Below, one piece after another: positions 1 to 25,864 of a stretch of 64,000 bases of DNA. The notes under the pieces are model-generated. The model was not told the origin of the DNA, did no database searches, and saw only the letters and a list, made by a program, of their open reading frames with translations. Origin of the DNA: Henricia sp. BOLD:AAB3569 (Eukaryota; Echinodermata; Asteroidea; Spinulosida; Echinasteridae); the NCBI GenBank assembly GCA_037783545.1, contig JBBELK010001632.1, positions 1-64,000 on the forward strand. The letters are read 5' to 3'. The position numbers and the translations under genes were made by a program. Position 1 is the first letter of the stretch. Each line of letters opens with the position of its first letter.

Positions 1-285
1 GCAATATAGAGTGTTTGGAGCATGCAAAATTTGAAGTTCGTCGGAATATTTTTTGACCTCCAAATTTGCCGACGTTTGGACCACACTTTGACCAAAATCC
101 CGTCCCAAACTGGGCCGCGTCAACGACAGTCCGAAGGACTGAGCATGCGCACGAGTCAGGAATACACCAAAGAGGTGTGTACAGACAGCCACAGGTTGCG
201 GGAGCATCAGGAAGCGCCAACCCCTTTTTTTTCTAAACTCTGAAATTTCTCTGCCATTTCCCGGCGAAAGTCTGTCAATTTTTTA

Positions 286-360
286 GGACAAGTGCGCAAT
301 ATAGAGTGTTTGGAGCATGCAAAATTTGAAGTTCGTCGGAATATTTTTTGACCTCCAAAT
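286..360 (+). repeat. Box shared between satellites A and B (A version)
   Basis: This segment aligns with 26,645-26,720 in satellite B. It begins GGACAAGTGCGCAATATAGAG in A and GAACACGTTTGCGATATAGAG in B (16 of 21 identical). It then contains CAAAATTTGAAGTTCGTC, identical over 18 bases to the B copies with TTCGTC, and ends near CTCCAAAT (B: TTCCAAAAT). It is the only long similarity between the monomers, and the A-B junction falls at its right side. It may be the remnant of a common ancestor or a conserved protein-binding segment. Confidence 0.85.
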
Positions 361-421
361 TTGCCGACGTTTGGACCACACTTTGACCAAAATCCCGTCC
401 CAAACTGGGCCGTGTCAACGA

Positions 422-436
422 CAGTCCGAAGGACTG
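422..436 (+). other. Perfect 6-bp stem hairpin repeated in each A monomer
   Basis: CAGTCC, loop GAA, GGACTG: a perfect inverted repeat present in nearly every A monomer. Some copies change only the loop (AAA, near 725). Others break one pair: CAGTCC-GAA-TGACTG near 2,195, 4,565, 6,050, 14,637 and 22,220, and CAGTCT near 7,528. It could extrude as a small cruciform or fold in a satellite transcript. Function is not known. Confidence 0.75.
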
Positions 437-456
437 AGCATGCGCACGAGTCAGGA

Positions 457-475
457 ATACACCAAAGAGGTGTGT
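457..475 (+). other. Second short hairpin repeated in each A monomer
   Basis: ACACC (459-463), loop AAAGA, GGTGT (469-473). The stem extends in RNA by a T-G wobble and one A-T pair. It lies about 20 bases downstream of the first hairpin, with GAGCATGCGCACGAGTCAGG between them. It is conserved in nearly all A monomers outside the indel-rich block. The pair may be a structural element of the monomer or of a transcript. Confidence 0.6.
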
Positions 476-516
476 ACAGACAGCCACAGGTTGCGGGAGC
501 TTCCAGGAAGCGCCAA

Positions 517-528
517 CCCCTTTTTTTT
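517..528 (+). other. C4T8 tract, length-variable in satellite A
   Basis: Every A monomer has a CCCC run followed by T, usually eight, varying from about six to ten between copies (for example C4T6 near 1,110, and C5 with T8 near 6,731). It is the main length-polymorphic site and explains most 295-297 bp spacing differences in clean regions. A pol III terminator could look like this, but no convincing promoter boxes precede it. Confidence 0.7.
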
Positions 529-1495
529 CTAAACTCTGAAATTTCTCTGCCATTTCCCGGCGAAAGTCTGTCATTTTTTTAGGACAAGTGCGCAATATAG
601 AGTGTTTGGAGCATGCAAAATTTGAAGTTCGTCGGAATATTTTTTGACCTCCAAATTTGCCGACGTTTGGACCACACTTTGACCAAAATCCCGTCCCAAA
701 CTGGGCCGTGTCAACGACAGTCCAAAGGACTGAGCATGCGCACGAGTCAGGAATACACCAAAGAGGTGTGTACAGACAGCCACAGGTTGCGGGAGCATCC
801 AGGAAGCGCCAACCCCTTTTTTTTCTAAACTCTGAAATTTCTCTGCCATTTCCAGGCGAAAGTCTGTCAATTTTTTAGGACAAGTGCGCAATATAGAGTG
901 TTTGGAGCATGCAAAATTTGAAGTTCGTCGGAATATTTTTTGACCTCCAAATTTGCCGACGTTTGGACCACACTTTGACCAAAATCCCGTCCCAAACTGG
1001 GCCGTGTCAACGACAGTCCGAAGGACTGAGCATGCGCACGAGTCAGGAATACACCAAAGAGGTGTGTACAGACAGCCACAGCTTGCGAGAGCATCCAGGA
1101 AGCGCCAACCCCTTTTTTCTAAACTCTGAAATTTCTCTGCCATTTCCCGGCGAAAGTCTGTCAATTTTTTAGGACAAGTGCGCAATATAGAGTGTTTGGA
1201 GTATGCAAAATTTGAAGTTCGTCGGAATATTTGTTGACCTCCAAATTTGCCGACGTTTGGACCACACTTTGACCAAAATCCGTCCCAAACTGGACCGCGT
1301 CAACGACAGTCCGAAGGACTGAGCATGCGCACGAGTCAGGAATACACCAAAGAGGTGTGTACAGACAGCCACAGGTTGCGGGAGCATCCAGGAAGCGCAA
1401 CCCCTTTTTTTCTAAACTCTGAAATTTCTCTGCCATTTCCCGGCGAAAGTCTGTCAATTGTTTAGGACAAGTGCGCAATATAGAGTGTTTGGAGC

Positions 1496-2974
1496 ATGCA
1501 AAATTTGAAGTTCGTCGGAATATTTTTTGACCTCCAAATTTGCCGACGTTTGGACCACACTTTGACCAAAATCCCGTCCCAAACTGGGCCGTGTCAACGA
1601 CAGTCCGAAGGACTGAGCATGCGCACGAGTCAGGAATACACCAAAGAGGTGTGTACAGACAGCCACAGCTTGCGAGAGCATCCAGGAAGCGCCAACCCCT
1701 TTTTTTCTAAACTCTGAAATTTCTCTGCCATTTCCCGGCGAAAGTCTGTCAATTTTTTAGGACAAGTGCGCAATATAGAGTGTTTGGAGTATGCAAAATT
1801 TGAAGTTCGTCGGAATATTTGTTGACCTCCAAATTTGCCGACGTTTGGACCACACTTTGACCAAAATCCCGTCCCAAACTGGGCCGCGTCAACGACAGTC
1901 CGAAGGACTGAGCATGCGCACGAGTCAGGAATACACCAAAGAGGTGTGTACAGACAGCCACAGGTTGCGGGAGCATCCAGGAAGCGCCAACCCCTTTTTT
2001 TTCTAAACTCTGAAATTTCTCTGCCATTTCCCGGCGAAAGTCTGTCAATTTTTTAGGACAAGTGCGCAATATAGAGTGTTTGGAGCATGCAAAATTTGAA
2101 GTTCGTCGGAATATTGTTTGACCTCCAAATTTGCCGACGTTTGGACCACACTTTGACCAAAATCCCGTCCCAAACTGGGCCGCGTCAACGACAGTCCGAA
2201 TGACTGAGCATGCGCACGAGTCAGGAATACACCAAAGAGGTGTGTACAGACAGCCACAGTTTGCGGGAGCATCCAGGAAGCGCCAACCCCTTTTTTTTCT
2301 AAACTCTGAAATTTCTCTGCCATTTCCCGGCGAAAGTCTGTCAATTTTTTAGGACAAGTGCGCAATATAGAGTGTTTGGAGCATGCAAAATTTGAAGTTC
2401 GTCGGAATATTTGTTGACCTCCAAATTTGCCGACGTTTGGACCACACTTTGACCAAAATCCCGTCCCAAACTGGGCCGCGTCAACGACAGTCCGAAGGAC
2501 TGAGCATGCGCACGAGTCAGGAATACACCAAAGAGGTGTGTACAGACAGCCACAGGTTGCGGGAGCATCCAGGAAGCGCCAACCCCTTTTTTTTCTAAAC
2601 TCTGAAATTTCTCTGCCATTTCCCGGCGAAAGTCTGTCAATTTTTTAGGACAAGTGCGCAATATAGAGTGTTTGGAGCATGCAAAATTTGAAGTTCGTCG
2701 GAATATTTTTTGACCTCCAAATTTGCCGACGTTTGGACCACACTTTGACCAAAATCCCGTCCCAAACTGGGCCGCGTCAACGACAGTCCGAAGGACTGAG
2801 CATGCGCACGAGTCAGGAATACACCAAAGAGGTGTGTACAGACAGCCACAGGTTGCGGGAGCATCCAGGAAGCGCCAACCCCTTTTTTTTCTAAACTCTG
2901 AAATTTCTCTGCCATTTCCCGGCGAAAGTCTGTCAATTTTTTTGGAAAAGTGCGCAATATAGAGTGTTTGGAGC
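1496..2974 (+). repeat. Higher-order block A1, copy 1 (5 monomers)
   Basis: Five monomers carry variants in the same order as 3,864-5,344: CAGCTTGCGAG; GAGTATGC with ATTTGTTG; ATTGTTTG with CCGAATGACTG; ATTTGTTG; then a consensus-like monomer. The offset is 2,368-2,370 bp, that is 8 monomers. Similarity stops where copy 1 continues with a GCAACATTTG monomer and copy 2 with a CAAATTTTCCG monomer. Confidence 0.8.
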
Positions 2975-3250
2975 ATGCAACATTTGAAGTTCGTCGGAAT
3001 ATTTTTTGACCTCCAAATTTGCCGACGTTTGAACCACACTTTGACCAAAATCCCGACCCAAACTGGGCCGTGTCAACGACAGTCCGAAGGACTGAGCATG
3101 CGCACGAGTCAGGAATACACCAAAGAGGTGTGTACAGACAGCCACAGGTTGCGGGAGCATCCAGGAAGCCCCAACCCCTTTTTTTTTCTAAACTCTGAAA
3201 TTTCTCTGCCATTTCCCGGCGAAAGTCTGTCAATTTTTTAGGACAAGTGC
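2087..3250 (+). repeat. Higher-order block A2, copy 1 (4 monomers, far pair)
   Basis: Four monomers in the variant order ATTGTTTG; ATTTGTTG; consensus; GCAACATTTG with the rare TTTGAACCACAC (near 3,031). The same order and the same rare TTTGAACCACAC appear about 20,022 bp downstream. Confidence 0.8.
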
Positions 3251-3863
3251 GCAATATAGAGTGTTTGGAGCATGCAAAATTTGAAGTTCGTCGGAATATT
3301 TTTTGACCTCCAAATTTTCCGACGTTTGGACCACACTTTGACCAAAATCCCGTCCCAAACTGGGCCGTGTCAACGACAGTCCGAAGGACTGAGCATGCGC
3401 ACGAGTCAGGAATACACCAAAGAGGTGTGTACAGACAGCCACAGGTTGCGGGAGCATCCAGGAAGCGCCAACCCCTTTTTTTTCTAAACTCTGAAATTTC
3501 TCTGCCATTTCCCGGCGAAAGTCTGTCAATTTTTTAGGAAAAGTGCGCAATATAGAGTGTTTGGAGCATGCAAAATTTGAAGTTCGTCGGAATATTTTTT
3601 GACCTCCAAATTTGCCGACGTTTGGACCACACTTTGACCAAAATCCCGTCCCAAACTGGGCCGCGTCAACGACAGTCCGAAGGACTGAGCATGCGCACGA
3701 GTCAGGAATACACCAAAGAGGTGTGTACAGACAGCCACAGGTTGCGGGAGCATCCAGGAAGCGCCAACCCCTTTTTTTTCTAAACTCTGAAATTTCTCTG
3801 CCATTTCCCGGCGAAAGTCTGTCAATTGTTTAGGACAAGTGCGCAATATAGAGTGTTTGGAGC

Positions 3864-5344
3864 ATGCAAAATTTGAAGTTCGTCGGAATATTTTTTGACC
3901 TCCAAATTTGCCGACGTTTGGACCACACTTTGACCAAAATCCCGTCCCAAACTGGGCCGTGTCAACGACAGTCCGAAGGACTGAGCATGCGCACGAGTCA
4001 GGAATACACCAAAGAGGTGTGTACAGACAGCCACAGCTTGCGAGAGCATCCAGGAAGCGCCAACCCCTTTTTTTCTAAACTCTGAAATTTCTCTGCCATT
4101 TCCCGGCGAAAGTCTGTCAATTTTTTAGGACAAGTGCGCAATATAGAGTGTTTGGAGTATGCAAAATTTGAAGTTCGTCGGAATATTTGTTGACCTCCAA
4201 ATTTGCCGACGTTTGGACCACACTTTGACCAAAATCCCGTCCCAAACTGGGCCGCGTCAACGACAGTCCGAAGGACTGAGCATGCGCACGAGTCAGGAAT
4301 ACACCAAAGAGGTGTGTACAGACAGCCACAGGTTGCGGGAGCATCCAGGAAGCGCCAACCCCTTTTTTTTTCTAAACTCTGAAATTTCTCTGCCATTTCC
4401 CGGCGAAAGTCTGTCAATTTTTTTAGGACAAGTGCGCAATATAGAGTGTTTGGAGCATGCAAAATTTGAAGTTCGTCGGAATATTGTTTGACCTCCAAAT
4501 TTGCCGACGTTTGGACCACACTTTGACCAAAATCCCGTCCCAAACTGGGCCGCGTCAACGACAGTCCGAATGACTGAGCATGCGCACGAGTCAGGAATAC
4601 ACCAAAGAGGTGTGTACAGACAGCCACAGTTTGCGGGAGCATCCAGGAAGCGCCAACCCCTTTTTTTTCTAAACTCTGAAATTTCTCTGCCATTTCCCGG
4701 CGAAAGTCTGTCAATTTTTTAGGACAAGTGCGCAATATAGAGTGTTTGGAGCATGCAAAATTTGAAGTTCGTCGGAATATTTGTTGACCTCCAAATTTGC
4801 CGACGTTTGGACCACACTTTGACCAAAATCCCGTCCCAAACTGGGCCGCGTCAACGACAGTCCGAAGGACTGAGCATGCGCACGAGTCAGGAATACACCA
4901 AAGAGGTGTGTACAGACAGCCACAGGTTGCGGGAGCATCCAGGAAGCGCCAACCCCTTTTTTTTCTAAACTCTGAAATTTCTCTGCCATTTCCCGGCGAA
5001 AGTCTGTCAATTTTTTAGGACAAGTGCGCAATATAGAGTGTTTGGAGCATGCAAAATTTGAAGTTCGTCGGAATATTTTTTGACCTCCAAATTTGCCGAC
5101 GTTTGGACCACACTTTGACCAAAATCCCGTCCCAAACTGGGCCGCGTCAACGACAGTCCGAAGGACTGAGCATGCGCACGAGTCAGGAATACACCAAAGA
5201 GGTGTGTACAGACAGCCACAGGTTGCGGGAGCATCCAGGAAGCGCCAACCCCTTTTTTTTCTAAACTCTGAAATTTCTCTGCCATTTCCCGGCGAAAGTC
5301 TGTCAATTTTTTAGGACAAGTGCGCAATATAGAGTGTTTGGAGC
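3864..5344 (+). repeat. Higher-order block A1, copy 2 (5 monomers)
   Basis: Matches 1,496-2,974 monomer by monomer, including diagnostic substitutions such as CAGCTTGCGAG and the CCGAATGACTG plus CAGTTTGCGGG pair. The next monomers contain the same two variants as the first region but in swapped order, as expected from unequal exchange between out-of-register HORs. Confidence 0.8.
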
Positions 5345-7122
5345 ATGCAAAATTTGAAGTTCGTCGGAATATTTTTTGACCTCCAAATTTTCCGACGTTT
5401 GGACCACACTTTGACCAAAATCCCGTCCCAAACTGGGCCGTGTCAACGACAGTCCGAAGGACTGAGCATGCGCACGAGTCAGGAATACACCAAAGAGGTG
5501 TGTACAGACAGCCACAGGTTGCGGGAGCATCCAGGAAGCGCCAACCCCTTTTTTTTCTAAACTCTGAAATTTCTCTGCCATTTCCCGGCGAAAGTCTGTC
5601 AATTTTTTAGGAAAAGTGCGCAATATAGAGTGTTTGGAGCATGCAACATTTGAAGTTCGTCGGAATATTTTTTGACCTCCAAATTTGCCGACGTTTGGAC
5701 CACACTTTGACCAAAATCCCGACCCAAACTGGGCCGTGTCAACGACAGTCCGAAGGACTGAGCATGCGCACGAGTCAGGAATACACCAAAGAGGTGTGTA
5801 CAGACAGCCACAGGTTGCGGGAGCATCCAGGAAGCGCCAACCCCTTTTTTTTTCTAAACTCTGAAATTTCTCTGCCATTTCCCGGCGAAAGTCTGTCAAT
5901 TTTTTAGGACAAGTGCGCAATATAGAGTGTTTGGAGCATGCAAAATTTGAAGTTGGTCGGAATATTTTTTGACCTCCAAATTTGCCGACGTTTGGACCAC
6001 ACTTTGACCAAAATCCCGTCCCAAACTGGGCCGTGTCAACGACAGTCCGAATGACTGAGCATGCGCACGAGTCAGGAATACACCAAAGAGGTGTGTACAG
6101 ACAGCCACAGGTTGCGGGAGCATCCAGGAAGCGCCAACCCCTTTTTTTTCTAAACTCTGAAATTTCTCTGCCATTTTCCGGCGAAAGTCTGTCAATTTCT
6201 TAGGACAAGTGCGCAATATAGAGTGTTTGGAGCATGCAAAATTTGAAGTTCGTCGGAATATTTTTTGACCTCCAAATTTGCCGACGTTTGGACCACACTT
6301 TGACCAAAATCCCGTCCCAAACTGGGCCGCGTCAACGACAGTCCGAAGGACTGAGCATGCGCACGAGTCAGGAATACACCAAAGAGGTGTGTACAGACAG
6401 CCACAGGTTGCGGGAGCATCCAGGAAGCGCCAACCCCTTTTTTTTCTAAACTCTGAAATTTCTCTGCCATTTCCCGGCGAAAGTCTGTCAATTTTTTAGG
6501 ACAAGTGCGCAATATAGAGTGTTTGGAGCATGCAAAATTTGAAGTTCGTCGGAATATTTTTTGACCTCCAAGTTTGCCGACGTTTGGACCACACTTTGAC
6601 CAAAATCCCGTCCCAAACTGGGCCGCGTCAACGACAGTCCGAAGGACTGAGCATGCGCACGAGTCAGGAATACACCAAAGAGGTGTGTAAAGACAGCCAC
6701 AGGTTGCGGGAGCATCCAGGAAGCGCCAACCCCCTTTTTTTTCTAAACTCTGAAATTTCTCTGCCATTTCCGGGCGAAAGTCTGTCATTTTTTTAGGACA
6801 AGTGCGCAATATAGAGTGTTTGGAGCATGCAAAATTTGAAGTTCGTCGGAATATTTTTTGACCTCCAAATTTGCCGACGTTTGGACCACACTTTGACCAA
6901 AATCCCGTCCCAAACTGGGCCGTGTCAACGACAGTCCGAAGGACTGAACATGCGCACGAGTCAGGAATACACCAAAGAGGTGTGTACAGACAGCCACAGG
7001 TTGTGGGAGCATCCAGGAAGCGCCAACCCCTTTTTTTTCTAAACTCTGAAATTTCTCTGCCATTTCCCGGCGAAAGTCTGTCATTTTTTTAGGACAAGTG
7101 CGCAATATAGAGTGTTTGGAGC

Positions 7123-8306
7123 ATGCAAAATTTGAAGTTCGTCGGAATATTTTTTGACCTCCAAATTTGCCGACGTTTGGACCACACTTTGACCAAAATC
7201 CCGTCCCAAACTGGGCCGCGTCAACGACAGTCCGAAGGACTGAGCATGCGCACGAGTCAGGAATACACCAAAGAGGTGTGTACAGACAGCCACAGGTTGC
7301 GGGAGCATCCAGGAAGCGCCAACCCCTTTTTTTTCTAAACTCTGAAATTTCTCTGCCATTTCCCGGCGAAAGTCTGTCAATTTTTTAGGAAAAGTGCGCA
7401 ATATAGAGTGTTTGGAGCATGCAAAATTTGAAGTTCGTCGGAATATTTTTTGACCTCCAAATTTGCCGACGTTTGGACCACACTTTGACCAAAATCCCGA
7501 CCCAAACTGGGCCGTGTCAACGACAGTCTGAAGGACTGAGCATGCGCACGAGTCAGGAATACACCAAAGAGGTGTGTACAGACAGCCACAGGTTGCGGGA
7601 GCATCCAGGAAGCGCCAACCCCTTTTTTTTCTAAACTCTGAAATTTCTCTGCCATTTCCCGGCGAAAGTCTGTCAATTTTTTAGGACAAGTGCGCAATAT
7701 AGAGTGTTTGGAGCATGCAAAATGTGAAGTTCGTCGGAATATTTTTTGACCTCCAAATATGCCGACGTTTGGACCACACTTTGACCAAAATCCCGTCCCA
7801 AACTGGGCCGCGTCAACGACAGTCCGAAGGACTGAGCATGCGCACGAGTCAGGAATACACCAAAGAGGTGTGTACAGACAGCCACAGGTTGCGGGAGCAT
7901 CCAGGAAGCGCCAACCCCTTTTTTTCCAAACTCTGAAATTTCTCTGCCATTTCCCGGCGAAAGTCTGTCAATTTTTTAGGACAAGTGCGCAATATAGAGT
8001 GTTTGGAGCATGCAAAATTTGAAGTTCGTCGGAATATTTTTTGACCTCAAAGTTTGCCGACGTTTGGACCACACTTTGACCAAAATCCCGTCCCAAACTG
8101 GGCCGCGTCAACGACAGTCCGAAGGACTGAGCATGCGCACGAGTCAGGAATACACCAAAGAGGTGTGTACAGACAGCCACAGGTTGCGGGAGCATCCAGG
8201 AAGCGCCAACCCCTTTTTTTTTCTAAACTCTGAAATTTCTCTGCCATTTCCGGGCGAAAGTCTGTCAATTTTTTAGGACAAGTGCGCAATATAGAGTGTT
8301 TGGAGC
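7123..8306 (+). repeat. Higher-order block A3, copy 1 (4 monomers)
   Basis: Four monomers repeated at 9,491-10,675 with an offset of 2,368-2,369 bp (8 monomers). The order is consensus; CCGACCC type; AAAATGTGAAG with CCAAATATGCC; CTCAAAGTTTGCC. Small private differences, such as CAGTCTGAAGG near 7,526 in this copy only, show the copies have diverged slightly. Confidence 0.78.
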
Positions 8307-10082
8307 ATGCAAAATTTGAAGTTGGTCGGAATATTTTTTGACCTCCAAATTTGCCGACGTTTGGACCACACTTTGACCAAAATCCCGTCCCAAACTGGGC
8401 CGTGTCAACGACAGTCCGAAGGACTGAGCATGCGCACGAGTCAGGAATACACCAAAGAGGTGTGTACAGACAGCCACAGGTTGCGGGAGCATCCAGGAAG
8501 CGCCAACCCCTTTTTTTTCTAAACTCTGAAATTTCTCTGCCATTTTCGGCGAAAGTCTGTCAATTTCTTAGGACAAGTGCGCAATATAGAGTGTTTGGAG
8601 CATGCAAAATTTGAAGTTCGTCGGAATATTTTTTGACCTCCAAATTTGCCGACGTTTGGACCACACTTTGACCAAAATCCCGTCCCAAACTGGGCCGCGT
8701 CAACGACAGTCCGAAGGACTGAGCATGCGCACGAGTCAGGAATACACCAAAGAGGTGTGTACAGACAGCCACAGGTTGCGGGAGCATCCAGGAAGCGCCA
8801 ACCCCTTTTTTTTCTAAACTCTGAAATTTCTCTGCCATTTCCCGGCGAAAGTCTGTCAATTTTTTAGGACAAGTGCGCAATATAGAGTGTTTGGAGCATG
8901 CAAAATTTGAAGTTCGTCGGAATATTTTTTGACCTCCAAATTTGCCGACGTTTGGACCACACTTTGACCAAAATCCCGTCCTAAACTGGGCCGTGTCAAC
9001 GACAGTCCGAAGGACTGAGCATGCGCACGAGTCAGGAATACACCAAAGAGGTGTGTACAGACAGCCACAGGTTGCGGGAGCATCCAGGAAGCGCCAACCC
9101 CTTTTTTTTCTAAACTCTGAAATTTCTCTGCCATTTCCCGGCGAAAGTCTGTCAATTTTTTAGGACAAGTGCGCAATATAGAGTGTTTGGAGCATGCAAA
9201 ATTTGAAGTTCGTCGGAATATTTTTTGACCTCCAAGTTTGCCGACGTTTGGACCACACTTTGACCAAAATCCCGTCCCAAACTGGGCCGCGTCAACGACA
9301 GTCCGAAGGACTGAGCATGCGCACGAGTCAGGAATACACCAAAGAGGTGTGTAAAGACAGCCACAGGTTGCGGGAGCATCCAGGAAGCGCCAACCCCCTT
9401 TTTTTTCTAAACTCTGAAATTTCTCTGCCATTTCCGGGCGAAAGTCTGTCATTTTTTTAGGACAAGTGCGCAATATAGAGTGTTTGGAGCATGCAAAATT
9501 TGAAGTTCGTCGGAATATTTTTTGACCTCCAAATTTGCCGACGTTTGGACCACACTTTGACCAAAATCCCGTCCCAAACTGGGCCGCGTCAACGACAGTC
9601 CGAAGGACTGAGCATGCGCACGAGTCAGGAATACACCAAAGAGGTGTGTACAGACAGCCACAGGTTGCGGGAGCATCCAGGAAGCGCCAACCCCTTTTTT
9701 TTCTAAACTCTGAAATTTCTCTGCCATTTCCCGGCGAAAGTCTGTCAATTTTTTAGGAAAAGTGCGCAATATAGAGTGTTTGGAGCATGCAAAATTTGAA
9801 GTTCGTCGGAATATTTTTTGACCTCCAAATTTGCCGACGTTTGGACCACACTTTGACCAAAATCCCGACCCAAACTGGGCCGTGTCAACGACAGTCCGAA
9901 GGACTGAGCATGCGCACGAGTCAGGAATACACCAAAGAGGTGTGTACAGACAGCCACAGGTTGCGGGAGCATCCAGGAAGCGCCAACCCCTTTTTTTTCT
10001 AAACTCTGAAATTTCTCTGCCATTTCCCGGCGAAAGTCTGTCAATTTTTTAGGACAAGTGCGCAATATAGAGTGTTTGGAGC
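8010..10082 (+). repeat. Higher-order block A4, copy 1 (7 monomers)
   Basis: Seven monomers repeated at 11,564-13,633 with an offset of 3,554 bp (12 monomers). Markers in order: CTCAAAGTTTGCC; GAAGTTGGTCGG; consensus; CGTCCTAAACTGG; GGTGTGTAAAGACAG with a C5 tract; consensus; CCGACCC. The shared rare CGTCCTAAACTGG (near 8,979 and 12,533) makes the match unambiguous. It overlaps block A3, so several exchange events are layered here. Confidence 0.78.
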
Positions 10083-10675
10083 ATGCAAAATGTGAAGTTC
10101 GTCGGAATATTTTTTGACCTCCAAATATGCCGACGTTTGGACCACACTTTGACCAAAATCCCGTCCCAAACTGGGCCGCGTCAACGACAGTCCGAAGGAC
10201 TGAGCATGCGCACGAGTCAGGAATACACCAAAGAGGTGTGTACAGACAGCCACAGGTTGCGGGAGCATCCAGGAAGCGCCAACCCCTTTTTTTTCTAAAC
10301 TCTGAAATTTCTCTGCCATTTCCCGGCGAAAGTCTGTCAATTTTTTAGGACAAGTGCGCAATATAGAGTGTTTGGAGCATGCAAAATTTGAAGTTCGTCG
10401 GAATATTTTTTGACCTCAAAGTTTGCCGACGTTTGGACCACACTTTGACCAAAATCCCGTCCCAAACTGGGCCGCGTCAACGACAGTCCGAAGGACTGAG
10501 CATGCGCACGAGTCAGGAATACACCAAAGAGGTGTGTACAGACAGCCACAGGTTGCGGGAGCATCCAGGAAGCGCCAACCCCTTTTTTTTTCTAAACTCT
10601 GAAATTTCTCTGCCATTTCCGGGCGAAAGTCTGTCAATTTTTTAGGACAAGTGCGCAATATAGAGTGTTTGGAGC
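9491..10675 (+). repeat. Higher-order block A3, copy 2 (4 monomers)
   Basis: Same variant order as 7,123-8,306. The following monomers differ: copy 1 continues with a GAAGTTGGTCGG monomer, copy 2 with a GAAGTTCGTCGG monomer. This marks an exchange point. Confidence 0.78.
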
Positions 10676-11563
10676 ATGCAAAATTTGAAGTTCGTCGGAA
10701 TATTTTTTGACCTCCAAATTTGCCGACGTTTGGACCACACTTTGACCAAAATCCCGTCCCAAACTGGGCCGTGTCAACGACAGTCCGAAGGACTGAGCAT
10801 GCGCACGAGTCAGGAATACACCAAAGAGGTGTGTACAGACAGCCACAGGTTGCGGGAGCATCCAGGAAGCGCCAACCCCTTTTTTTTCTAAACTCTGAAA
10901 TTTCTCTGCCATTTCCGGGCGAAAGTCTGTCAATTTTTTAGGACAAGTGCGCAATATAGAGTGTTTGGAGCATGCAAAATTTGAAGTTCGTCGGAATATT
11001 TTTTGACCTCCAAATTTGCCGACGTTTGGACCACACTTTGACCAAAATCCCGTCCCAAACTGGGCCGCGTCAACGACAGTCCGAAGGACTGAGCATGCGC
11101 ACGAGTCAGGAATACACCAAAGAGGTGTGTACAGACAGCCACAGGTTGCGGGAGCATCCAGGAAGCGCCAACCCCTTTTTTTTCTAAACTCTGAAATTTC
11201 TCTGCCATTTCCCGGCGAAAGTCTGTCAATTTTTTAGGAAAAGTGCGCAATATAGAGTGTTTGGAGCATGCAAAATTTGAAGTTCGTCGGAATATTTTTT
11301 GACCTCCAAATTTGCCGACGTTTGGACCACACTTTGACCAAAATCCCGTCCCAAACTGGGCCGCGTCAACGACAGTCCGAAGGACTGAGCATGCGCACGA
11401 GTCAGGAATACACCAAAGAGGTGTGTACAGACAGCCACAGGTTGCGGGAGCATCCAGGAAGCGCCAACCCCTTTTTTTTCCAAACTCTGAAATTTCTCTG
11501 CCATTTCCCGGCGAAAGTCTGTCAATTTTTTAGGACAAGTGCGCAATATAGAGTGTTTGGAGC

Positions 11564-13633
11564 ATGCAAAATTTGAAGTTCGTCGGAATATTTTTTGACC
11601 TCAAAGTTTGCCGACGTTTGGACCACACTTTGACCAAAATCCCGTCCCAAACTGGGCCGCGTCAACGACAGTCCGAAGGACTGAGCATGCGCACGAGTCA
11701 GGAATACACCAAAGAGGTGTGTACAGACAGCCACAGGTTGCGGGAGCATCCAGGAAGCGCCAACCCCTTTTTTTTTCTAAACTCTGAAATTTCTCTGCCA
11801 TTTCCGGGCGAAAGTCTGTCAATTTTTTAGGACAAGTGCGCAATATAGAGTGTTTGGAGCATGCAAAATTTGAAGTTGGTCGGAATATTTTTTGACCTCC
11901 AAATTTGCCGACGTTTGGACCACACTTTGACCAAAATCCCGTCCCAAACTGGGCCGTGTCAACGACAGTCCGAAGGACTGAGCATGCGCACGAGTCAGGA
12001 ATACACCAAAGAGGTGTGTACAGACAGCCACAGGTTGCGGGAGCATCCAGGAAGCGCCAACCCCTTTTTTTTCTAAACTCTGAAATTTCTCTGCCATTTC
12101 CGGCGAAAGTCTGTCAATTTCTTAGGACAAGTGCGCAATATAGAGTGTTTGGAGCATGCAAAATTTGAAGTTCGTCGGAATATTTTTTGACCTCCAAATT
12201 TGCCGACGTTTGGACCACACTTTGACCAAAATCCCGTCCCAAACTGGGCCGCGTCAACGACAGTCCGAAGGACTGAGCATGCGCACGAGTCAGGAATACA
12301 CCAAAGAGGTGTGTACAGACAGCCACAGGTTGCGGGAGCATCCAGGAAGCGCCAACCCCTTTTTTTTCTAAACTCTGAAATTTCTCTGCCATTTCCCGGC
12401 GAAAGTCTGTCAATTTTTTAGGACAAGTGCGCAATATAGAGTGTTTGGAGCATGCAAAATTTGAAGTTCGTCGGAATATTTTTTGACCTCCAAATTTGCC
12501 GACGTTTGGACCACACTTTGACCAAAATCCCGTCCTAAACTGGGCCGTGTCAACGACAGTCCGAAGGACTGAGCATGCGCACGAGTCAGGAATACACCAA
12601 AGAGGTGTGTACAGACAGCCACAGGTTGCGGGAGCATCCAGGAAGCGCCAACCCCTTTTTTTTCTAAACTCTGAAATTTCTCTGCCATTTCCCGGCGAAA
12701 GTCTGTCAATTTTTTAGGACAAGTGCGCAATATAGAGTGTTTGGAGCATGCAAAATTTGAAGTTCGTCGGAATATTTTTTGACCTCCAAGTTTGCCGACG
12801 TTTGGACCACACTTTGACCAAAATCCCGTCCCAAACTGGGCCGCGTCAACGACAGTCCGAAGGACTGAGCATGCGCACGAGTCAGGAATACACCAAAGAG
12901 GTGTGTAAAGACAGCCACAGGTTGCGGGAGCATCCAGGAAGCGCCAACCCCCTTTTTTTTCTAAACTCTGAAATTTCTCTGCCATTTCCGGGCGAAAGTC
13001 TGTCATTTTTTTAGGACAAGTGCGCAATATAGAGTGTTTGGAGCATGCAAAATTTGAAGTTCGTCGGAATATTTTTTGACCTCCAAATTTGCCGACGTTT
13101 GGACCACACTTTGACCAAAATCCCGTCCCAAACTGGGCCGCGTCAACGACAGTCCGAAGGACTGAGCATGCGCACGAGTCAGGAATACACCAAAGAGGTG
13201 TGTACAGACAGCCACAGGTTGCGGGAGCATCCAGGAAGCGCCAACCCCTTTTTTTCTAAACTCTGAAATTTCTCTGCCATTTCCCGGCGAAAGTCTGTCA
13301 ATTTTTTAGGAAAAGTGCGCAATATAGAGTGTTTGGAGCATGCAAAATTTGAAGTTCGTCGGAATATTTTTTGACCTCCAAATTTGCCGACGTTTGGACC
13401 ACACTTTGACAAAATCCCGACCCAAACTGGGCCGTGTCAACGACAGTCCGAAGGACTGAGCATGCGCACGAGTCAGGAATACACCAAAGAGGTGTGTACA
13501 GACAGCCACAGGTTGCGGGAGCATCCAGGAAGCGCCAACCCCTTTTTTTTCTAAACTCTGAAATTTCTCTGCCATTTCCGGCGAAAGTCTGTCAATTTTT
13601 TAGGACAAGTGCGCAATATAGAGTGTTTGGAGC
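11564..13633 (+). repeat. Higher-order block A4, copy 2 (7 monomers)
   Basis: Same variant series as 8,010-10,082. Its last monomers run into the indel-rich region (one base missing near 13,410), so the end of this copy is less reliable. Confidence 0.75.
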
Positions 13634-16600
13634 ATGCAAAATTTGAAGTTCGTCGGAATATTTTTTGACCTCAAAGTTTGCCGACGTTTGGACCACAACT
13701 TTGACCAAAATCCCGTCCCAAACTGGGCCGCGTCAACGACAGTCCGAAGGACTGAGCATGCGCACGAGTCAGGAATACACCAAAGAGGTGTGTACAGACA
13801 GCCACAGGTTGCGGGAGCATCCAGGAAGCGCCAACCCCTTTTTTTTTCTAAACTCTGAAATTTCTCTGCCATTTCCGGGCGAAAGTCTGTCAATTTTTTA
13901 GGACAAGTGCGCAATATAGAGTGTTTGGAGCATGCAAAATTTGAAGTTCGTCGGAATATTTTTTGACCTCCAAATTTGCCGACGTTTGGACCACACTTTG
14001 ACCAAAATCCCGTCCCAAACTGGGCCGCTGTCAACGACAGTCCGAAGGACTGAGCATGCGCACGAGTCAGGAATACACCAAAGAGGTGTGTACAGACAGC
14101 CACAGGTTGCGGGAGCATCCAGGAAGCGCCAACCCCTTTTTTTTCTAAACTCTGAAATTTCTCTGCCATTTCCCGGCGAAAGTCTGTCAATTTTTTAGGA
14201 CAAGTGCGCAATATAGAGTGTTTGGAGCATGCAAAATTTGAAGTTCGTCGGAATATTTTTTGACCTCCAAATTTGCCGACGTTTGGACCACACTTTGACC
14301 AAAATCCCGTCCCAAACTGGGCCGCGTCAACGACAGTCCGAAGGACTGAGCATGCGCACGAGTCAGGAATACACCAAAGAGGTGTGTACAGACAGCCACA
14401 GGTTGCGGGAGCAGCCAGGAAGCGCCAACCCCTTTTTTTTTCTAAACTCTGAAATTTCTCTGCCATTTCCCGGCGAAAGTCTGTCAATTTTTTAGGACAA
14501 GTGCGCAATATAGAGTGTTTGGAGCATGCAAAATTTGAAGTTGTCGGAATATTTTTTGACCTCCAAATTTGCCGACGTTTGGACCACACTTTGACCAAAA
14601 TCCCGTCCCAAACTGGGCCGTGTCAACGACAGTCCGAATGACTGAGCATGCGCACGAGTCAGGAATACACCAAAGAGGTGTGTACAGACAGCCACAGGTT
14701 TGCGGGAGCATCCAGGAAGCGCCAACCCCTTTTTTTTCTAAACTCTGAAATTTCTCTGCCATTTTCCGGCGAAAGTCTGTCAATTTCTTAGGACAAGTGC
14801 GCAATATAGAGTGTTTGGAGCATGCAAAATTTGAAGTTCGTCGGAATATTTTTTGACCTCCAAATTTGCCGACGTTTGGACCACACTTTGACCAAAATCC
14901 CGTCCCAAACTGGGCCGCGTCAACGACAGGTCCCGAAGGACTGAGCATGCGCACGAGTCAGGAATACACCAAAGAGGTGTGTACAGACAGCCACAGGTTG
15001 CGGGAGCATCCAGGAAGCGCCAACCCCTTTTTTTTCTAAACTCTGAAATTTCTCTGCCATTTCCCGGCGAAAGTCTGTCAATTTTTTAGGACAAGTGCGC
15101 AATATAGAGTGTTTGGAGCATGCAAAATTTGAAGTTCGTCGGAATATTTTTTGACCTCCAAGTTTGCCGACGTTTGGACCACACTTTGACCAAAATCCCG
15201 TCCCAAACTGGGGCCGCGTCAACGACAGTCCGAAGGACTGAGCATGCGCACGAGTCAGGAATACACCAAAGAGGTGTGTAAAGACAGCCACAGGTTGCGG
15301 GAGCATCCAGGAAGCGCCAACCCCCTTTTTTTTCTAAACTCTGAAATTTCTCTGCCATTTCCGGGCGAAAGTCTGTCATTTTTTTTAGGACAAGTGCGCA
15401 ATATAGAGTGTTTGGAGCATGCAAAATTTGAAGTTCGTCGGAATATTTTTTGACCTCCAAATTTGCCGACGTTTGGACCACACTTTGACCAAAATCCCGT
15501 CCCAAACTGGGCCGTGTCAACGACAGTCCGAAGGACTGAACATGCGCACGAGTCAGGAATACACCAAAGAGGTGTGTACAGACAGCCACAGGTTGTGGGA
15601 GCATCAGGAAGCGCCAACCCCTTTTTTTTCTAAACTCTGAAATTTCTCTGCCATTTCCGGCGAAAGTCTGTCAATTTTTTAGGACAAGTGCGCAATATAG
15701 AGTGTTTGGAGCATGCAAAATTTGAAGTTCGTCGGAATATTTTTTGACCTCCAAATTTGCCGACGTTTGGACCACACTTTGACCAAAATCCCGTCCCAAA
15801 CTGGGCCGCGTCAACGACAGTCCGAAGGACTGAGCATGCGCACGAGTCAGGAATACACCAAAGAGGTGTGTACAGACAGCCACAGGTTGCGGGAGCATCC
15901 AGGAAGCGCCAAACCCCTTTTTTTTCTAAACTCTGAAATTTCTCTGCCATTTCCCGGCGAAAGTCTGTCAATTTTTTAGGAAAAGTGCGCAATATAGAGT
16001 GTTTGGAGCATGCAAAATTTGAAGTTCGTCGGAATATTTTTGACCTCCAAATTTGCCGACGTTTGGACCACACTTTGACCAAAATCCCGACCCAAACTGG
16101 GCCGTGTCAACGACAGTCCTGAAGGACTGAGCATGCGCACGAGTCAGGAATACACCAAAGAGGTGTGTACAGACAGCCACAGGTTGCGGGAGCATCCAGG
16201 AAGCGCCAACCCCTTTTTTTTCTAAACTCTGAAATTTCTCTGCCATTTCCCGGCGAAAGTCTGTCAATTTTTTAGGACAAGTGCGCAATATAGAGTGTTT
16301 GGAGCATGCAAAATGTGAAGTTCGTCGGAATATTTTTTGACCTCCAAATATGCCGACGTTTGGACCACACTTTGACCAAAATCCCGTCCCAAACTGGGGC
16401 CGCGTCAACGACAGTCCGAAGGACTGAGCATGCGCACGAGTCAGAATACACCAAAGAGGTGTGTACAGACAGCCACAGGTTGCGGGAGCATCCAGGAAGC
16501 GCCAACCCTTTTTTTTCCAAACTCTGAAATTTCTCTGCCATTTCCCGGCGAAAGTCTGTCAATTTTTTAGGACAAGTGCGCAATATAGAGTGTTTGGAGC

Positions 16601-19600
16601 ATGCAAAATTTGAAGTTCGTCGGAATATTTTTTGACCTCAAAGTTTGCCGACGTTTGGACCACACTTCTGACCAAAATCCCGTCCCAAACTGGGGCCCGC
16701 GTCAACGACAGTCCGAAGGACTGAGCATGCGCACGAGTCAGGAATACACCAAAGAGGTGTGTACAGACAGCCACAGGTTGCGGGAGCATCCAGGAAGCGC
16801 CAACCCCTTTTTTTTTTCTAAACTCTGAAATTTCTCTGCCATTTCCGGGCGAAAGTCTGTCAATTTTTAGGACAAGTGCGCAATATAGAGTGTTTGGAGC
16901 ATGCAAAATTTGAAGTTGGTCGGAATATTTTTTGACCTCCAAATTTGCCGACGTTTGGACCACACTTTGACCAAAATCCCGTCCCAAACTGGGCCGTGTC
17001 AACGACAGTCCGAAGGACTGAGCATGCGCACGAGTCAGGAATACACCAAAGAGGTGTGTACAGACAGCCACAGGTTGCGGGAGCATCCAGGAAGCGCCAA
17101 CCCCTTTTTTTTCTAAACTCTGAAATTTCTCTGCCATTTTCCGGCGAAAGTCTGTCAATTTCTTAGGACAAGTGCGCAATATAGAGTGTTTGGAGCATGC
17201 AAAATTTGAAGTTCGTCGGAATATTTTTTGACCTCCAAATTTGCCGACGTTTGGACCACACTTGACCAAAATCCCGTCCCAAACTGGGCCGCGTCAACGA
17301 CAGTCCGAAGGACTGAGCATGCGCACGAGTCAGGAATACACCAAAGAGGTGTGTACAGACAGCCACAGGTTGCGGGAGCATCCAGGAAGCGCCAACCCCT
17401 TTTTTTTTCTAAACTCTGAAATTTCTCTGCCATTTCCCGGCGAAAGTCTGTCAATTTTTTAGGACAAGTGCGCAATATAGAGTGTTTGGAGCATGCAAAA
17501 TGTGAAGTTCGTCGGAATATTTTTTGACCTCCAAATATGCCGACGTTTGGGACCACACTTTGACCAAAATCCCGTCCCAAACTGGGCCGCGTCAACGACA
17601 GTCCGAAGGACTGAGCATGCGCACGAGTCAGGAATACACCAAAGAGGTGTGTACAGACAGCCACAGGTTGCGGGAGCATCCAGGAAGCGCCAACCCCTTT
17701 TTTTTCTAAACTCTGAAATTTCTCTGCCATTTCCCGGCGAAAGTCTGTCAATTTTTTAGACAAGTGCGCAATATAGAGTGTTTGGAGCATGCAAAATTTG
17801 AAGTTCGTCGGAATATTTTTTGACCTCCAAGTTTGCCGACGTTTGGACCACACTTTGACCAAAATCCCGTCCCAAACTGGGCCGTGTCAACGACAGTCCG
17901 AAGGACTGAGCATGCGCACGAGTCAGGAATACACCAAAGAGGTGTGTACAGACAGCCACAGGTTGCGGGAGCATCCAGGAAGCGCCAACCCCTTTTTTTT
18001 CTAAACTCTGAAATTTCTCTGCCATTTTCCCGGCGAAAGTCTGTCAATTTTTTAGGACAAGTGCGCAATATAGAGTGTTTGGAGCATGCAAAATTTGAAG
18101 TTCGTCGGAATATTTTTTGACCTCCAAATTTGCCGACGTTTGGACCACACTTTGACCAAAATCCCGTCCCAAACTGGGCCGCAGTCAACGACAGTCCGAA
18201 GGACTGAGCATGCGCACGAGTCAGGAATACACCAAAGAGGTGTGTACAGACAGCCACAGGTTGCGGGAGCATCCAGGAAGCGCCAACCCCTTTTTCTTTT
18301 CTAAACTCTGAAATTTCTCTGCCATTTCCCGGCGAAAGTCTGTCAATTTTTTTAGGAAAAGTGCGCAATATAGAGTGTTTGGAGCATGCAACAATTTGAA
18401 GTTCGTCGGAATATTTTTTGACCTCCAAATTTGCCGACGTTTGGACCACACTTTGACCAAAATCCCGACCCAAACTGGGGCCGTGTCAACGACAGTCCGA
18501 AGGACTGAGCATGCGCAAGAGTCAGGAATACACCAAAGAGGTGTGTACAGACAGCCACAGGTTGCGGGAGCATCCAGGAAGCGCCAACCCCTTTTTTTTC
18601 TAAACTCTGAAATTTTCTCTGCCATTTCCCGGCGAAAGTCTGTCAATTTTTTAGGACAAGTGCGCAATATAGAGTGTTTGGAGCATGCAAAATGTGAAGT
18701 TCGTCGGAATATTTTTTGACCTCCAAATTTGCCGACGTTTGGACCACACTTTGACCAAAATCCCGTCCCAAACTGGGCCGCGTCAACGACAGTCCGAAGG
18801 ACTGAGCATGCGCACGAGTCAGGAATACACCAAAGAGGTGTGTACAGACAGCCACAGGTTGCGGGAGCATCCAGGAAGCGCCAACCCCTTTTTTTTCTAA
18901 ACTCTGAAATTTCTCTGCCATTTCCCGGCGAAAGTCTGTCAATTTTTTAGGACAAGTGCGCAATATAGAGTGTTTGGAGCATGCAAAATTTGAAGTTCGT
19001 CGGAATATTTTTTGACCTCCAAGTTTGCCGACGTTTGGACCACACTTTGACCAAAATCCCGTCCCAAACTGGGCCGCGGTCAACGACAGTCCGAAGGACT
19101 GAGCATGCGCACGAGTCAGGAATACACCAAGAGGTGTGTACAGACAGCCACAGGTTGCGGGAGCATCCAGGAAGCGCCAACCCCTTTTTTTTTCTAAACT
19201 CTGAAATTTCTCTGCCATTTCCCGGGCGAAAGTCTGTCAATTTTTTAGGACAAGTGCGCAATATAGAGTGTTTGGAGCATGCAAATTTGAAGTTCGTCGG
19301 AATATTTTTTGACCTCCAAATTTGCCGACGTTTGGACCACACTTTGACCAAAATCCCGTCCCAAACTGGGCCGTCGTCAACGACAGTCCGAAGGGACTGA
19401 GCATGCGCACGAGTCAGGAATACACCAAAGAGGTGTGTACAGACAGCCACAGGTTGCGGGAGCATCCAGGAAGCGCCAACCCCTTTTTTTTCTAAACTCT
19501 GAAATTTCTCTGCCATTTCCCGGCGAAAGTCTGTCAATTTTTTAGGACAAGTGCGCAATATAGAGTGTTTGGAGCATGCAAAATTTGAAGTTCGTCGGAA

Positions 19601-20462
19601 TATTTTTTGACCTCCAAATTTGCCGACGTTTTGGACCCACACTTTGACCAAAATCCCGTCCCAAACTGGGCCGCGTCAACGACAGTCCGAAGGACTGAGC
19701 ATGCGCACGAGTCAGGAATACACCAAGAGGTGTGTACAGACAGCCACAGGTTGCGGGAGCATCCAGGAAGCGCCAACCCCTTTTTTTTCTAAACTCTGAA
19801 AATTTCTCTGCCATTTCCCGGCGAAAGTCTGTCAATTTTTTAGGACAAGTGCGCAATATAAAGTGTTTGGAGCATGCAAAATTTGAAGTTCGTCGGAATA
19901 TTTTTTGACCTCCAAATTTGCCGACGTTTGGACCACACTTTGACCAAAATCCCGTCCCAAACTGGGCCGTGTCAACGACAGTCCGAAGGACCTGAGCATG
20001 CGCACGAGTCAGGAATACACCAAAGAGGTGTGTACAGACAGCCACAGGTTGCGGGAGCATGCAGGAAGCGCCAACCCTTTTTTTTTCTAAACTCTGAAAT
20101 TTCTCTGCCATTTCCCGGCGAAAGTCTGTCAATTGTTTAGGACAAGTGCGCAATATAGAGTGTTTGGAGCATGCAAAATTTGAAGTTCGTCGGAATATTT
20201 TTTGACCTCCAAATTTGCCGACGTTTTGGACCACACTTTGACCAAAATCCCGACCCAAACTGGGCCGCGTCAACGACAGTCCGAAGGACTGAGCATGCGC
20301 ACGAGTCAGGAATACACAAAGAGGTGTGTACAGACAGCCACAGGTTGCGGGAGCATCCAGGAAGCGCCAACCCCTTTTGTTTCTAAACTCTGAAATTTCT
20401 CTGCCATTTCCCGGCGAAAGTCTGTCAATTTTTAGGACAAGTGCGCAATATAGGCGAATATA
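13400..20462 (+). other. Indel-rich, low-fidelity block inside satellite A
   Basis: Private one-base gains and losses appear in almost every monomer, unlike both flanks. Examples: GACAAAATCCC (13,410), CACAACTTTG (13,697), AGTTGTCGG (14,543), CTTCTGACC (16,667), GTCAGAATAC (16,442), TTTAGACAAG (17,757), ACCAAGAGG (19,128 and 19,725) and CGTTTTGGACCCAC (19,628). Many fall at homopolymers. Longer apparent reading frames here (for example 13,600-14,598 on the minus strand) come from these shifts. The likeliest explanation is poor consensus or a gap patch rather than biology. Confidence 0.75.
14520..17200 (+). repeat. Noisy copy of the 5.93-8.61 kb block
   Basis: Rare markers match at an offset near 8,590 bp: CCGAATGACTG (14,637 and 6,050), GGTGTGTAAAGACAG (15,278 and 6,686), ACTGAACATGCGC with GGTTGTGGG (15,535-15,600 and 6,945-7,012), AAAATGTGAAG (16,312 and 7,721), CTCAAAGTTTG (16,638 and 8,048) and GAAGTTGGTCGG (16,917 and 8,324). 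ACTGAACATGCGC is found nowhere else in the window. The block is therefore a second, error-laden version of a known clean segment. Confidence 0.75.
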
Positions 20463-20466
20463 GAGT
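20444..20466 (+). other. 10-bp insertion at the end of the indel-rich block
   Basis: The usual GCGCAATATAGAGTG is replaced by GCGCAATATA, then GGCGAATATA, then GAGTG: ten extra bases resembling a local duplication of the adjoining GCGCAATATA. It occurs once in the window and lies exactly where private indels stop, so it may be a join between sequence sources. Confidence 0.7.
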
Positions 20467-21660
20467 GTTTGGAGCATGCAAAATTTGAAGTTCGTCGGAA
20501 TATTTTTTGACCTCCAAATTTGCCGACGTTTGGACCACACTTTGACCAAAATCCCGTCCCAAACTGGGCCGCGTCAACGACAGTCCGAAGGACTGAGCAT
20601 GCGCACGAGTCAGGAATACACCAAAGAGGTGTGTACAGACAGCCACAGGTTGCGGGAGCATCCAGGAAGCGCCAACCCCCTTTTTTTTCTAAACTCTGAA
20701 ATTTCTCTGCCATTTCCGGGCGAAAGTCTGTCAATTTTTTAGGACAAGTGCGCAATATAGAGTGTTTGGAGCATGCAAAATTTTAAGTTCGTCGGAATAT
20801 TTTTTGACCTCCAAATTTGCCGACGTTTGGACCACACTTTGACCAAAATCCCGTCCCAAACTGGGCCGTGTCAACGACAGTCCGAAGGACTGAGCATGCG
20901 CACGAGTCAGGAATACACCAAAGAGGTGTGTACAGACAGCCACAGGTTGCGGGAGCATCCAGGAAGCGCCAACCCCTTTTTTTTATAAACTCTGAAATTT
21001 CTCTGCCATTTTCCGGCGAAAGTCTGTCAATTTCTTTGGACAAGTGCGCAATATAGAGTGTTTGGAGCATGCAAAATTTGAAGTTCGTCGGAATATTTTT
21101 TGACCTCCAAATTTGCCGACGTTTGGACCACACTTTGACCAAAATCCCGTCCCAAACTGGGCCGCGTCAACGACAGTCCGAAGGACTGAGCATGCGCACG
21201 AGTCAGGAATACACCAAAGAGGTGTGTACAGACAGCCACAGGTTGCGGGAGCATCCAGGACGCGCCAACCCCTTTTTTTTCTAAACTCTGAAATTTCTCT
21301 GCCATTTCCCGGCGAAAGTCTGTCAATTTTTTAGGACAATTGCGCAATATAGAGTGTTTGGAGCATGCAAAATTTGAAGTTCGTCGGAATATTTTTTGAC
21401 CTCCAAATTTGCCGACGTTTGGACCACACTTTGACCAAAATCCCGTCCCAAACTGGGCCGTGTCAACGACAGTCCGAAGGACTGAGCATGCGCACGAGTC
21501 AGGAATACACCAAAGAGGTGTGTACAGACAGCCACAGGTTGCGGGAGCATCCAGGAAGCGCCAACCCCTTTTTTTTCTAAACTCTGAAATTTCTCTGCCA
21601 TTTCCCGGCGAAAGTCTGTCAATTTTTTAGGACAAGTGCGCAATATAGAGTGTTTGGAGC

Positions 21661-22108
21661 ATGCAAAATTTGAAGTTCGTCGGAATATTTTTTGACCTCC
21701 AAGTTTGCCGACGTTTGGACCACACTTTGACCAAAATCCCGTCCCAAACTGGGCCGCGTCAACGACAGTCCGAAGGACTGAGCATGCGCACGAGTCAGGA
21801 ATACACCAAAGAGGTGTGTACAGACAGCCACAGGTTGCGGGAGCATCCAGGAAGCGCCAACCCCCTTTTTTTTCTAAACTCTTAAATTTCTCTGCCATTT
21901 CCGGGCGAAAGTCTGTCAATTTTTTAGGACTGAGCATGCGCACGAGTCAGGAATACACCAAAGAGGTGTGTACAGACAGCCACAGGTTGCGGGAGCATCC
22001 AGGAAGCGACAACCCCTTTTTTTTCTAAACTCTGAAATTTCTCTGCCATTTCCCGGCGAAAGTCTGTCAATTTTTTAGGACAAGTGCGCAATATAAAGTG
22101 TTTGGAGC
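21661..22108 (+). repeat. A monomer followed by a 151-bp partial monomer (145-bp deletion)
   Basis: Near 21,926-21,931 the text TTTTTTAGGAC, normally followed by AAGTGCGC, runs directly into TGAGCATGCGCACGAG, normally preceded by CCGAAGGAC. The shared AGGAC is kept once, and about 145 bp between the two AGGAC occurrences are missing. The landmark spacing here is 448 bp instead of 296. It lies in a clean region and is the only such deletion seen in array A. Confidence 0.85.
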
Positions 22109-23270
22109 ATGCAAAATTTGAAGTTCGTCGGAATATTGTTTGACCTCCAAATTTGCCGACGTTTGGACCACACTTTGACCAAAATCCCGTCCCAAACTGG
22201 GCCGCGTCAACGACAGTCCGAATGACTGAGCATGCGCACGAGTCAGGAATACACCAAAGAGGTGTGTACAGACAGCCACAGTTTGCGGGAGCATCCAGGA
22301 AGCGCCAACCCCTTTTTTTTCTAAACTCTGAAATTTCTCTGCCATTTCCCGGCGAAAGTCTGTCAATTTTTTAGGACAAGTGCGCAATATAGAGTGTTTG
22401 GAGCATGCAAAATTTGAAGTTCGTCGGAATATTTGTTGACCTCCAAATTTGCCGACGTTTGGACCACACTTTGACCAAAATCCCGTCCCAAACTGGGCCG
22501 CGTCAACGACAGTCCGAAGGACTGAGCATGCGCACGAGTCAGGAATACACCAAAGAGGTGTGTACAGACAGCCACAGGTTGCGGGAGCATCCAGGAAGCG
22601 CCAACCCCTTTTTTTTCTAAACTCTGAAATTTCTCTGCCATTTCCCGGCGAAAGTCTGTCAATTTTTTAGGACAAGTGCGCAATATAGAGTGTTTGGAGC
22701 ATGCAAAATTTGAAGTTCGTCGGAATATTTTTTGACCTCCAAATTTGCCGACGTTTGGACCACACTTTGACCAAAATCCCGTCCCAAACTGGGCCGCGTC
22801 AACGACAGTCCGAAGGACTGAGCATGCGCACGAGTCAGGAATACACCAAAGAGGTGTGTACAGACAGCCACAGGTTGCGGGAGCATCCAGGAAGCGCCAA
22901 CCCCTTTTTTTCTAAACTCTGAAATTTCTCTGCCATTTCCCGGCGAAAGTCTGTCAATTTTTTAGGAAAAGTGCGCAATATAGAGTGTTTGGAGCATGCA
23001 ACATTTGAAGTTCGTCGGAATATTTTTTGACCTCCAAATTTGCCGACGTTTGAACCACACTTTGACCAAAATCCCGACCCAAACTGGGCCGTGTCAACGA
23101 CAGTCCGAAGGACTGAGCATGCGCACGAGTCAGGAATACACCAAAGAGGTGTGTACAGACAGCTACAGGTTGCGGGAGCATCCAGGAAGCCCAACCCCTT
23201 TTTTTTTCTAAACTCTGAAATTTCTCTGCCATTTCTCGGCGAAAGTCTGTCAATTTTTTAGGACAAGTGC
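22109..23270 (+). repeat. Higher-order block A2, copy 2 (4 monomers, far pair)
   Basis: Matches 2,087-3,250 with a constant offset of 20,021-20,022 bp, including TTTGAACCACAC near 23,051. It starts directly after the 151-bp partial monomer near 21,930, so that deletion may mark where this block was joined. Private differences such as CAGCTACAGG near 23,161 show that it is not an exact assembly duplicate. Confidence 0.78.
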
Positions 23271-25665: not shown

Positions 25666-25720
25666 GCAAAATTTGAAGTTCGTCGGAATATTTTTGGCGA
25701 CCACTTCAGACGCAATGTTT
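25666..25720 (+). other. Junction between satellite A and satellite B
   Basis: The last A monomer is intact through GTCGGAATATTTTT (to about 25,695). It is then followed by GGCGACCACTTCAGACGC, which belongs to B just after its shared box. At most one or two bases (TG) are ambiguous. No spacer, target-site duplication or transposon end is visible. Compared with B, about 13 bp of box are missing, so the exchange was close to register. Flanking monomers on both sides are clean. Confidence 0.88.
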
Positions 25721-25790
25721 ACCGAAAGCGGCGTCTGCTTGTGCGAAAACTGTGCCGGCAAAGAGTTTTTGCTAGATTCGACGATAACTC

Positions 25791-25807: not shown

Positions 25808-25864
25808 AATTGCTGAAATTTGCAGAACACGTTTGCGATATAGAGTTGTTTTAGCAGACAAAAT

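Follow-up and report, generated by a model that had tools for sequence, protein, structure and literature searches.

The 64,000 nucleotides analysed here (the window) hold two satellite families, A and B, which we regard, with a probability of roughly two in three, as a chimeric pair: one module of about 105 bp has been kept in both, the remainder of the unit has been replaced, and the units have then been homogenised. The two families form a clear case of modular satellites in adjacent arrays with a visible junction between them, and lend themselves to the question of how new satellites arise.

Organization of the two arrays

The window is satellite DNA from end to end and is made up of two tandem families, as detected by TRF. 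Satellite A occupies positions 1..25696 (the end being approximate) on the plus strand, about 25.7 kb of 296-bp units arranged head to tail, with copies about 97-98% alike. Satellite B follows at 25697..64000, also on the plus strand, with about 38.3 kb of 205-bp units organized into a higher-order repeat that includes truncated units of about 142, 115 and 96 bp. According to TRF, both A and B are long head-to-tail arrays of near-identical units, as expected of satellite DNA. From these arrays alone the host setting would be eukaryotic and probably pericentromeric or centromeric.

The A consensus (296 bp) was built from 83 of 85 start-to-start intervals, intervals outside 288-304 bp being left out, and the B consensus (205 bp) from 156 of 179, without intervals outside 199-211 bp. 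Sites depart from the consensus by 0.0098 on average in A and by 0.032 in B. Units of B fall into classes, defined by 22 positions with at least 12% variation, and the order of these classes, read by eye, is similar each time it recurs along the array.

The collections searched for outside relatives were prokaryotic, viral or plasmid. A two-part pattern had no match in viral_contigs, and its two matches in genome_contigs were single copies in bacterial contigs with flanks unlike the satellite. The 18-mer of the box shared by A and B (see below; C or T allowed) found three single matches in viral_contigs, again with flanks unlike the satellite, and the A-only and B-only patterns found none there. 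Literature text searches with satellite sequence strings gave no match, and those combining unit lengths with 'satellite DNA' or 'monomer' returned nothing related. A structured RNA was considered and rejected: no Rfam family reached gathering scores in the window, the one match (E 4.8) lying in a 701-bp stretch of A, and folding of A gave z values of -0.72 for approximately the non-block part (374-564) and +0.81 for approximately the block (564-671). The non-block part of A carries, at consensus positions 129-180 (e.g. 422-473), the perfect inverted repeats CAGTCC-GAA-GGACTG and ACACC-AAAGA-GGTGT; its overall folding is not unusual.

A block of about 105 bp is shared by A and B

An earlier note on this DNA had described a box of about 75 bp common to both monomers, and positions 286-360 are one A copy that matches this description. 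Local alignment of the doubled consensus sequences of A and B gave a score of 60 over 110 columns, 81 of them identical, 20 mismatched and 9 with gaps. Not one of 2000 dinucleotide shuffles of A reached this score (mean 18.5, sd 2.4, maximum 33); alignment to the opposite strand scored 24. Chance similarity of A and B, refuted by the shuffles, is virtually out of the question. The score was thus far from being no better than that of shuffled monomers, the outcome named in the note as contrary to its claim, and the sharing of a box stands; its length had been put too low.

The common block is colinear and in the same orientation in A and B, spans about 105 bp and has 74% identity. By local alignment it comprises positions 265-296 plus 1-75 of the A consensus (107 bp, about 36% of the unit) and 107-205 plus 1-5 of the B consensus (104 bp, about half of the unit). 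Examples of it, placed by consensus alignment with coordinates taken from the sequence, are 262..368 in one A unit, repeated along A, and 26008..26111 in one B unit, repeated in full B units, both on the plus strand. Along the block, identity is 66% in the left 38 columns, 77% in the next 22, 94% in the 18-base core and 69% in the right 32. Extension to the left of ATATAGAG has moderate support, its score being reached by 10 of 500 shuffles and, under three scoring schemes, by 0, 3 and 1 of 150. To the right of TCCAAA the extension is poorly supported (171 of 500; 8, 50 and 2 of 150).

Outside the block, ten global and local tests with five scoring schemes and two shuffle controls revealed no clear similarity between A and B (p 0.087-0.538), and the opposite strand and the reversed sequence scored nearly as well or better. 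When the two remainders were compared in the same orientation, 95 of 500 shuffles reached the score, which is not significant. The remainders of the monomers therefore look unrelated, as the note had put it, with one exception: tested separately, the 60 bp at the right edge gave p values of 0.027 and 0.075 (two other sub-regions 0.29-0.37), so the block may end less sharply on this side than its coordinates suggest. Apart from this marginal stretch, A and B show partial homology beyond chance with none detected elsewhere, that is, they are related satellites with a common module. When an 88-bp box was cut out and the remaining parts of A and B were compared, one match in inverted orientation had a score of 24, which only 4 of 500 shuffles reached; its B side belongs to the left tail of the extended block, and AAATTT palindromes are part of it. 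At the A edge, a test for self-inverted similarity was negative (p 0.46).

The core of the block, CAAAATTTGAAGTTCGTC, is found for instance at 320..337 in one A unit, on the plus strand. Counting as cores all 18-mer matches with up to two substitutions, we found the exact sequence in 68 of 86 A cores and in 12 of 178 B cores, the first of these 12 being located at 26679..26696 on the plus strand. The claim that 18 bases are identical in A and in one class of B is thus confirmed for these 12 copies; most B copies deviate from the A-type 18-mer at one C/T position, the types TTTGTC and TTTGTT accounting for 145 and 19 of the 178. Three recurrent variants of the A core make up 15 of the 86 copies. 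In all, the window contains 263 occurrences of the 18-mer with up to two mismatches, versus 0.01 expected in shuffles. All cores found are on the plus strand, and a search for minus-strand cores in the window, allowing up to one substitution in CAAAATTTGAAGTT, detected none. The step from TTCG to TTTG is the kind of change expected at CpG, and the A form may therefore be the older one. Most of the window's DNA seems to show no CpG depletion: the observed/expected ratio is 1.61 outside the block in B (consensus 6-105, e.g. 25702-25801), 1.14 and 1.36 within the block in B and A, respectively, and 0.73 in the A remainder.

A is about equally distant from all major B classes

We compared A with the 12 largest B classes, which include 134 of the 156 units. 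Alignment scores ranged from 46 to 60, and A is about equally far from all of them; sharing of the module therefore predates these classes. The class that bears the A-type 18-mer scores 57 and is no nearer to A than the others. Within the block, 70-81 identical positions in 94-110 columns were counted in 11 of the 12 classes, and 54 of 71 in the remaining one.

These distances bear on the idea that the similarity arose later, by gene conversion between the adjacent arrays. A and B do adjoin each other and have the same orientation; however, no single B class is much closer to A than the rest, and in none of the 12 largest is the block near-identical to that of A. Conversion of recent date would be expected to leave stretches of near-identity in some copies, the present comparison being one of class consensus sequences. 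We consider gene conversion highly improbable.

The junction and the internal rearrangements

The transition from A to B lies at 25651..25705 (plus strand). The last A core is complete, A continues up to ...GGAATATTTTT, and B then begins with GGCGACCAC, so that the junction is located 3' of an intact A core and the sequence goes on at B position 205/1. Both sides of the junction fall within the shared block, offset by about 14 bp as judged by eye. Simple arithmetic, from the lengths of block and units, gives a chance of about 5% that a single random junction would have both sides in the block.

Further joins occur within the arrays. In the 115-bp B units (e.g. 27065..27179, plus strand; 8 such joins in the window) B117 is joined to B1, and the core and most of the block are absent. 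The 90 missing bases, approximately B118-207, are those between two copies of AAAT(T/A)GC. Class-specific B bases, read by eye, make this unit look like a derived deletion and not like an empty site. The core is also absent from the 96-bp units, where B160 is joined to B61 (e.g. 35131..35226, plus strand; 2 such joins). Units of 142 bp result from 11 joins of 197 to 66, and the 142- and 115-bp units recur at similar places in the class order. A contains one partial duplication of 152 bp (21774..22081, plus strand), joined at AGGAC and lacking a second core; the joins within A are a short insertion at 296/1 and a join of 292 to 137. Inspection by eye showed short homologies at the joins, namely AGGAC in the 152-bp duplication of A, AAAT(T/A)GC in the 115-bp units and GCA in the 96-bp units. 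B units without a core turn up repeatedly in the array, so not every unit requires the box.

The position of these joins could mean that the block, not necessarily its core, is prone to recombination and promotes exchange within and between A and B, as is proposed for Box 1 of Meloidogyne; such a property would be compatible with common descent. Apart from the placement of the A-B junction, 9 of the 12 sides of the five kinds of join and the junction lie in the block, where its share of the units would predict about 5.4. This is hand arithmetic (binomial approximately 0.03) on sides that are not mutually independent, and the count was made with the data already known. There are, however, only six kinds of join, none of the five kinds of A/B join has a side inside the 18-base core, and the joins examined display other short homologies. 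The AT-richness of the block and its many short repeats may suffice as a reason. A special tendency of the block to recombine thus appears quite improbable to us.

Is the core under special constraint?

The earlier note had alternatively suggested selection on the shared block, as for a binding site. According to this explanation, the core would bind a chromosomal protein, centromeric, CENP-B-like or other, and would have been selected in both satellites while the remainder turned over. The core does retain 17 of 18 bases, with 12 of the 178 B cores identical to A, and a comparison with the other 92 columns, 64 of them identical, yields a Fisher p of 0.021; this value is uncorrected, the core having been chosen as the best stretch. 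Once the choice is taken into account, the excess disappears. The best 18-column window, with the core at 17/18, was no better than expected under random placement of mismatches (p 0.42, or 0.46 with neighbouring gaps merged). Likewise, permutation of the 110 columns showed the best-kept segment to be no better than random, with p values of 0.49, 0.50 and 0.30 under three mismatch penalties at which part of the block is singled out; under the mildest, the segment extends over all of it (p 1.0). Identity did not change significantly with distance from the core (p 0.16).

Variation among copies tells much the same. In A it amounts to 0.012 in the core versus 0.0096 outside, 0.0127 versus 0.0081 for the block and 0.0100 versus 0.0097 for the 75-bp box. 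In B the core varies less than the rest (0.0153 versus 0.0336), a difference that is not significant, as 26% of rotations are as low or lower; the corresponding values for the block are 0.0301 and 0.034. Cold-spot scans of A and B with windows of 20, 40 and 75 bp and three thresholds gave no p below 0.2. The best hint of constraint is the low divergence among the consensus sequences of the 12 largest B classes at positions 141-179 (1.2%, as compared with 4.2% at 106-205 and 5.0% at 1-105), and it is not significant in the cold-spot scans. The note had proposed to compare per-site variation inside and outside the box, and had taken equality of the two as contrary evidence. Variation in the A box is indeed about equal to that of the rest, and in B it is not significantly lower. 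Within-array variation is, however, a weak test of old selection because homogenisation shapes such variation. A box significantly better conserved than its surroundings, of the kind described in Meloidogyne, is not what the core represents; it is the whole block that is conserved relative to the rest of the unit.

Nor does the core closely resemble the human CENP-B box. It matches 9 of 17 positions in A and 7 of 17 in the main B type, which is below the best match elsewhere in each unit and also below the average best match of about 11 of 17 in shuffled units. Of the essential bases of that box, A has 5 of 9 in the core and the main B type 3 of 9; elsewhere in A the best match to them is 7 of 9, attained by 62% of 300 shuffles. 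No full match to NTTCGNNNNANNCGGGN, the CENP-B box, is present in the A or B unit. To the left of the shared core, positions 95-111 of B (e.g. 25791-25807), with the sequence GGTCGGTTTAAACGGGA, match 12 of 17 positions and 8 of 9 essential bases of the human box. An 8/9 match is reached by 3.3% of 300 shuffled B units. Among the 156 full units, 82 have 8 of 9, and the commonest 7-of-9 form occurs in 60.

A binding-site core does have a precedent: PMC3694981 and PMC9673304 report a 17-bp CENP-B box-like motif kept in divergent satellites of Meloidogyne, and a 19-bp CenH3-associated box is cited in PMC9673304. The low divergence of B classes at 141-179 is in its favour as well. Against it are the scan-corrected p value of 0.42, box variation that is not significantly lower, the three recurrent variants of the A core, the recurrence of B units without the core (eight 115-bp joins and two 96-bp joins) and the poor likeness to the human CENP-B box. 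We therefore regard selection on a binding site as unsupported and rather unlikely. Distinctly unlikely, too, is its more specific form, in which a chromosomal protein with no relation to CENP-B would bind ATATAGAG...CAAAATTTGAAGTTYGTC, and two centromeric satellites would have retained this stretch as the rest of the unit around it was replaced. If the core were a binding site, it would represent a further sequence-dependent chromosomal element outside mammals. Judged by its sequence, the core bears no clear sign of special protection.

Discussion

Descent of A and B from a common source, followed by replacement of the remainder, could have proceeded as follows. An older repeat containing the module would have given rise to both A and B. 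In one line at least, illegitimate (short-homology) recombination would have replaced or joined the remainder of the unit; amplification and homogenisation of each new chimera would have followed. The module would have reached its 26% divergence before B split into its present classes, and the long runs of identity, including the core, would be a chance outcome of uniform divergence of the block. We infer the replacement step, its mechanism and the order of events from the present-day units; no ancestor or intermediate family was seen in the window. Of the two interpretations put forward in the earlier note, common descent is supported by the colinear stretch of about 105 bp with its 74% identity, by the loss of detectable similarity outside it and by the about equal distance of A from the 12 largest B classes, and selection is not borne out. 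As it stands, the data point to ancestry, not to function.

The closest parallels known to us come from nematodes of the genus Meloidogyne. PMC9673304 describes 11 divergent Meloidogyne satellites that have kept a CENP-B box-like motif of 17 bp, and PMC3694981 describes switches between monomer types at this Box 1, for which a role in recombination is proposed. As far as these excerpts go, A and B are like the Box 1 satellites in that one segment is common to divergent families. In Meloidogyne the 17-bp box stands out among 11 satellites, whereas here two families are seen, about 105 bp are shared, and the core does not stand out. Monomer types change there at the box, and here, similarly, the single A-B junction lies within the shared block, though 3' of an intact core; this core is less like the CENP-B box than Box 1 is.

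A separate 19-bp box is found in CenH3-associated tandem repeats of Meloidogyne (Despot-Slade et al. 2021, as cited in the accessible part of PMC9673304). These repeats are 45-83 bp long and form arrays of up to 1 kb, according to the citation in the excerpt of PMC10264360. They too combine a common box with otherwise divergent sequence. Association with CenH3 is reported for those Meloidogyne repeats. In mammalian alpha satellite, the CENP-B box is present in only some units of the higher-order satellite, as stated in the available portion of PMC12321929. So far as that portion allows comparison, the core of A and B is similar in being a short element carried by only some higher-order units, and differs from the CENP-B box of alpha satellite in its sequence, with 9 of 17 matching positions in A and 7 of 17 in the main B type.
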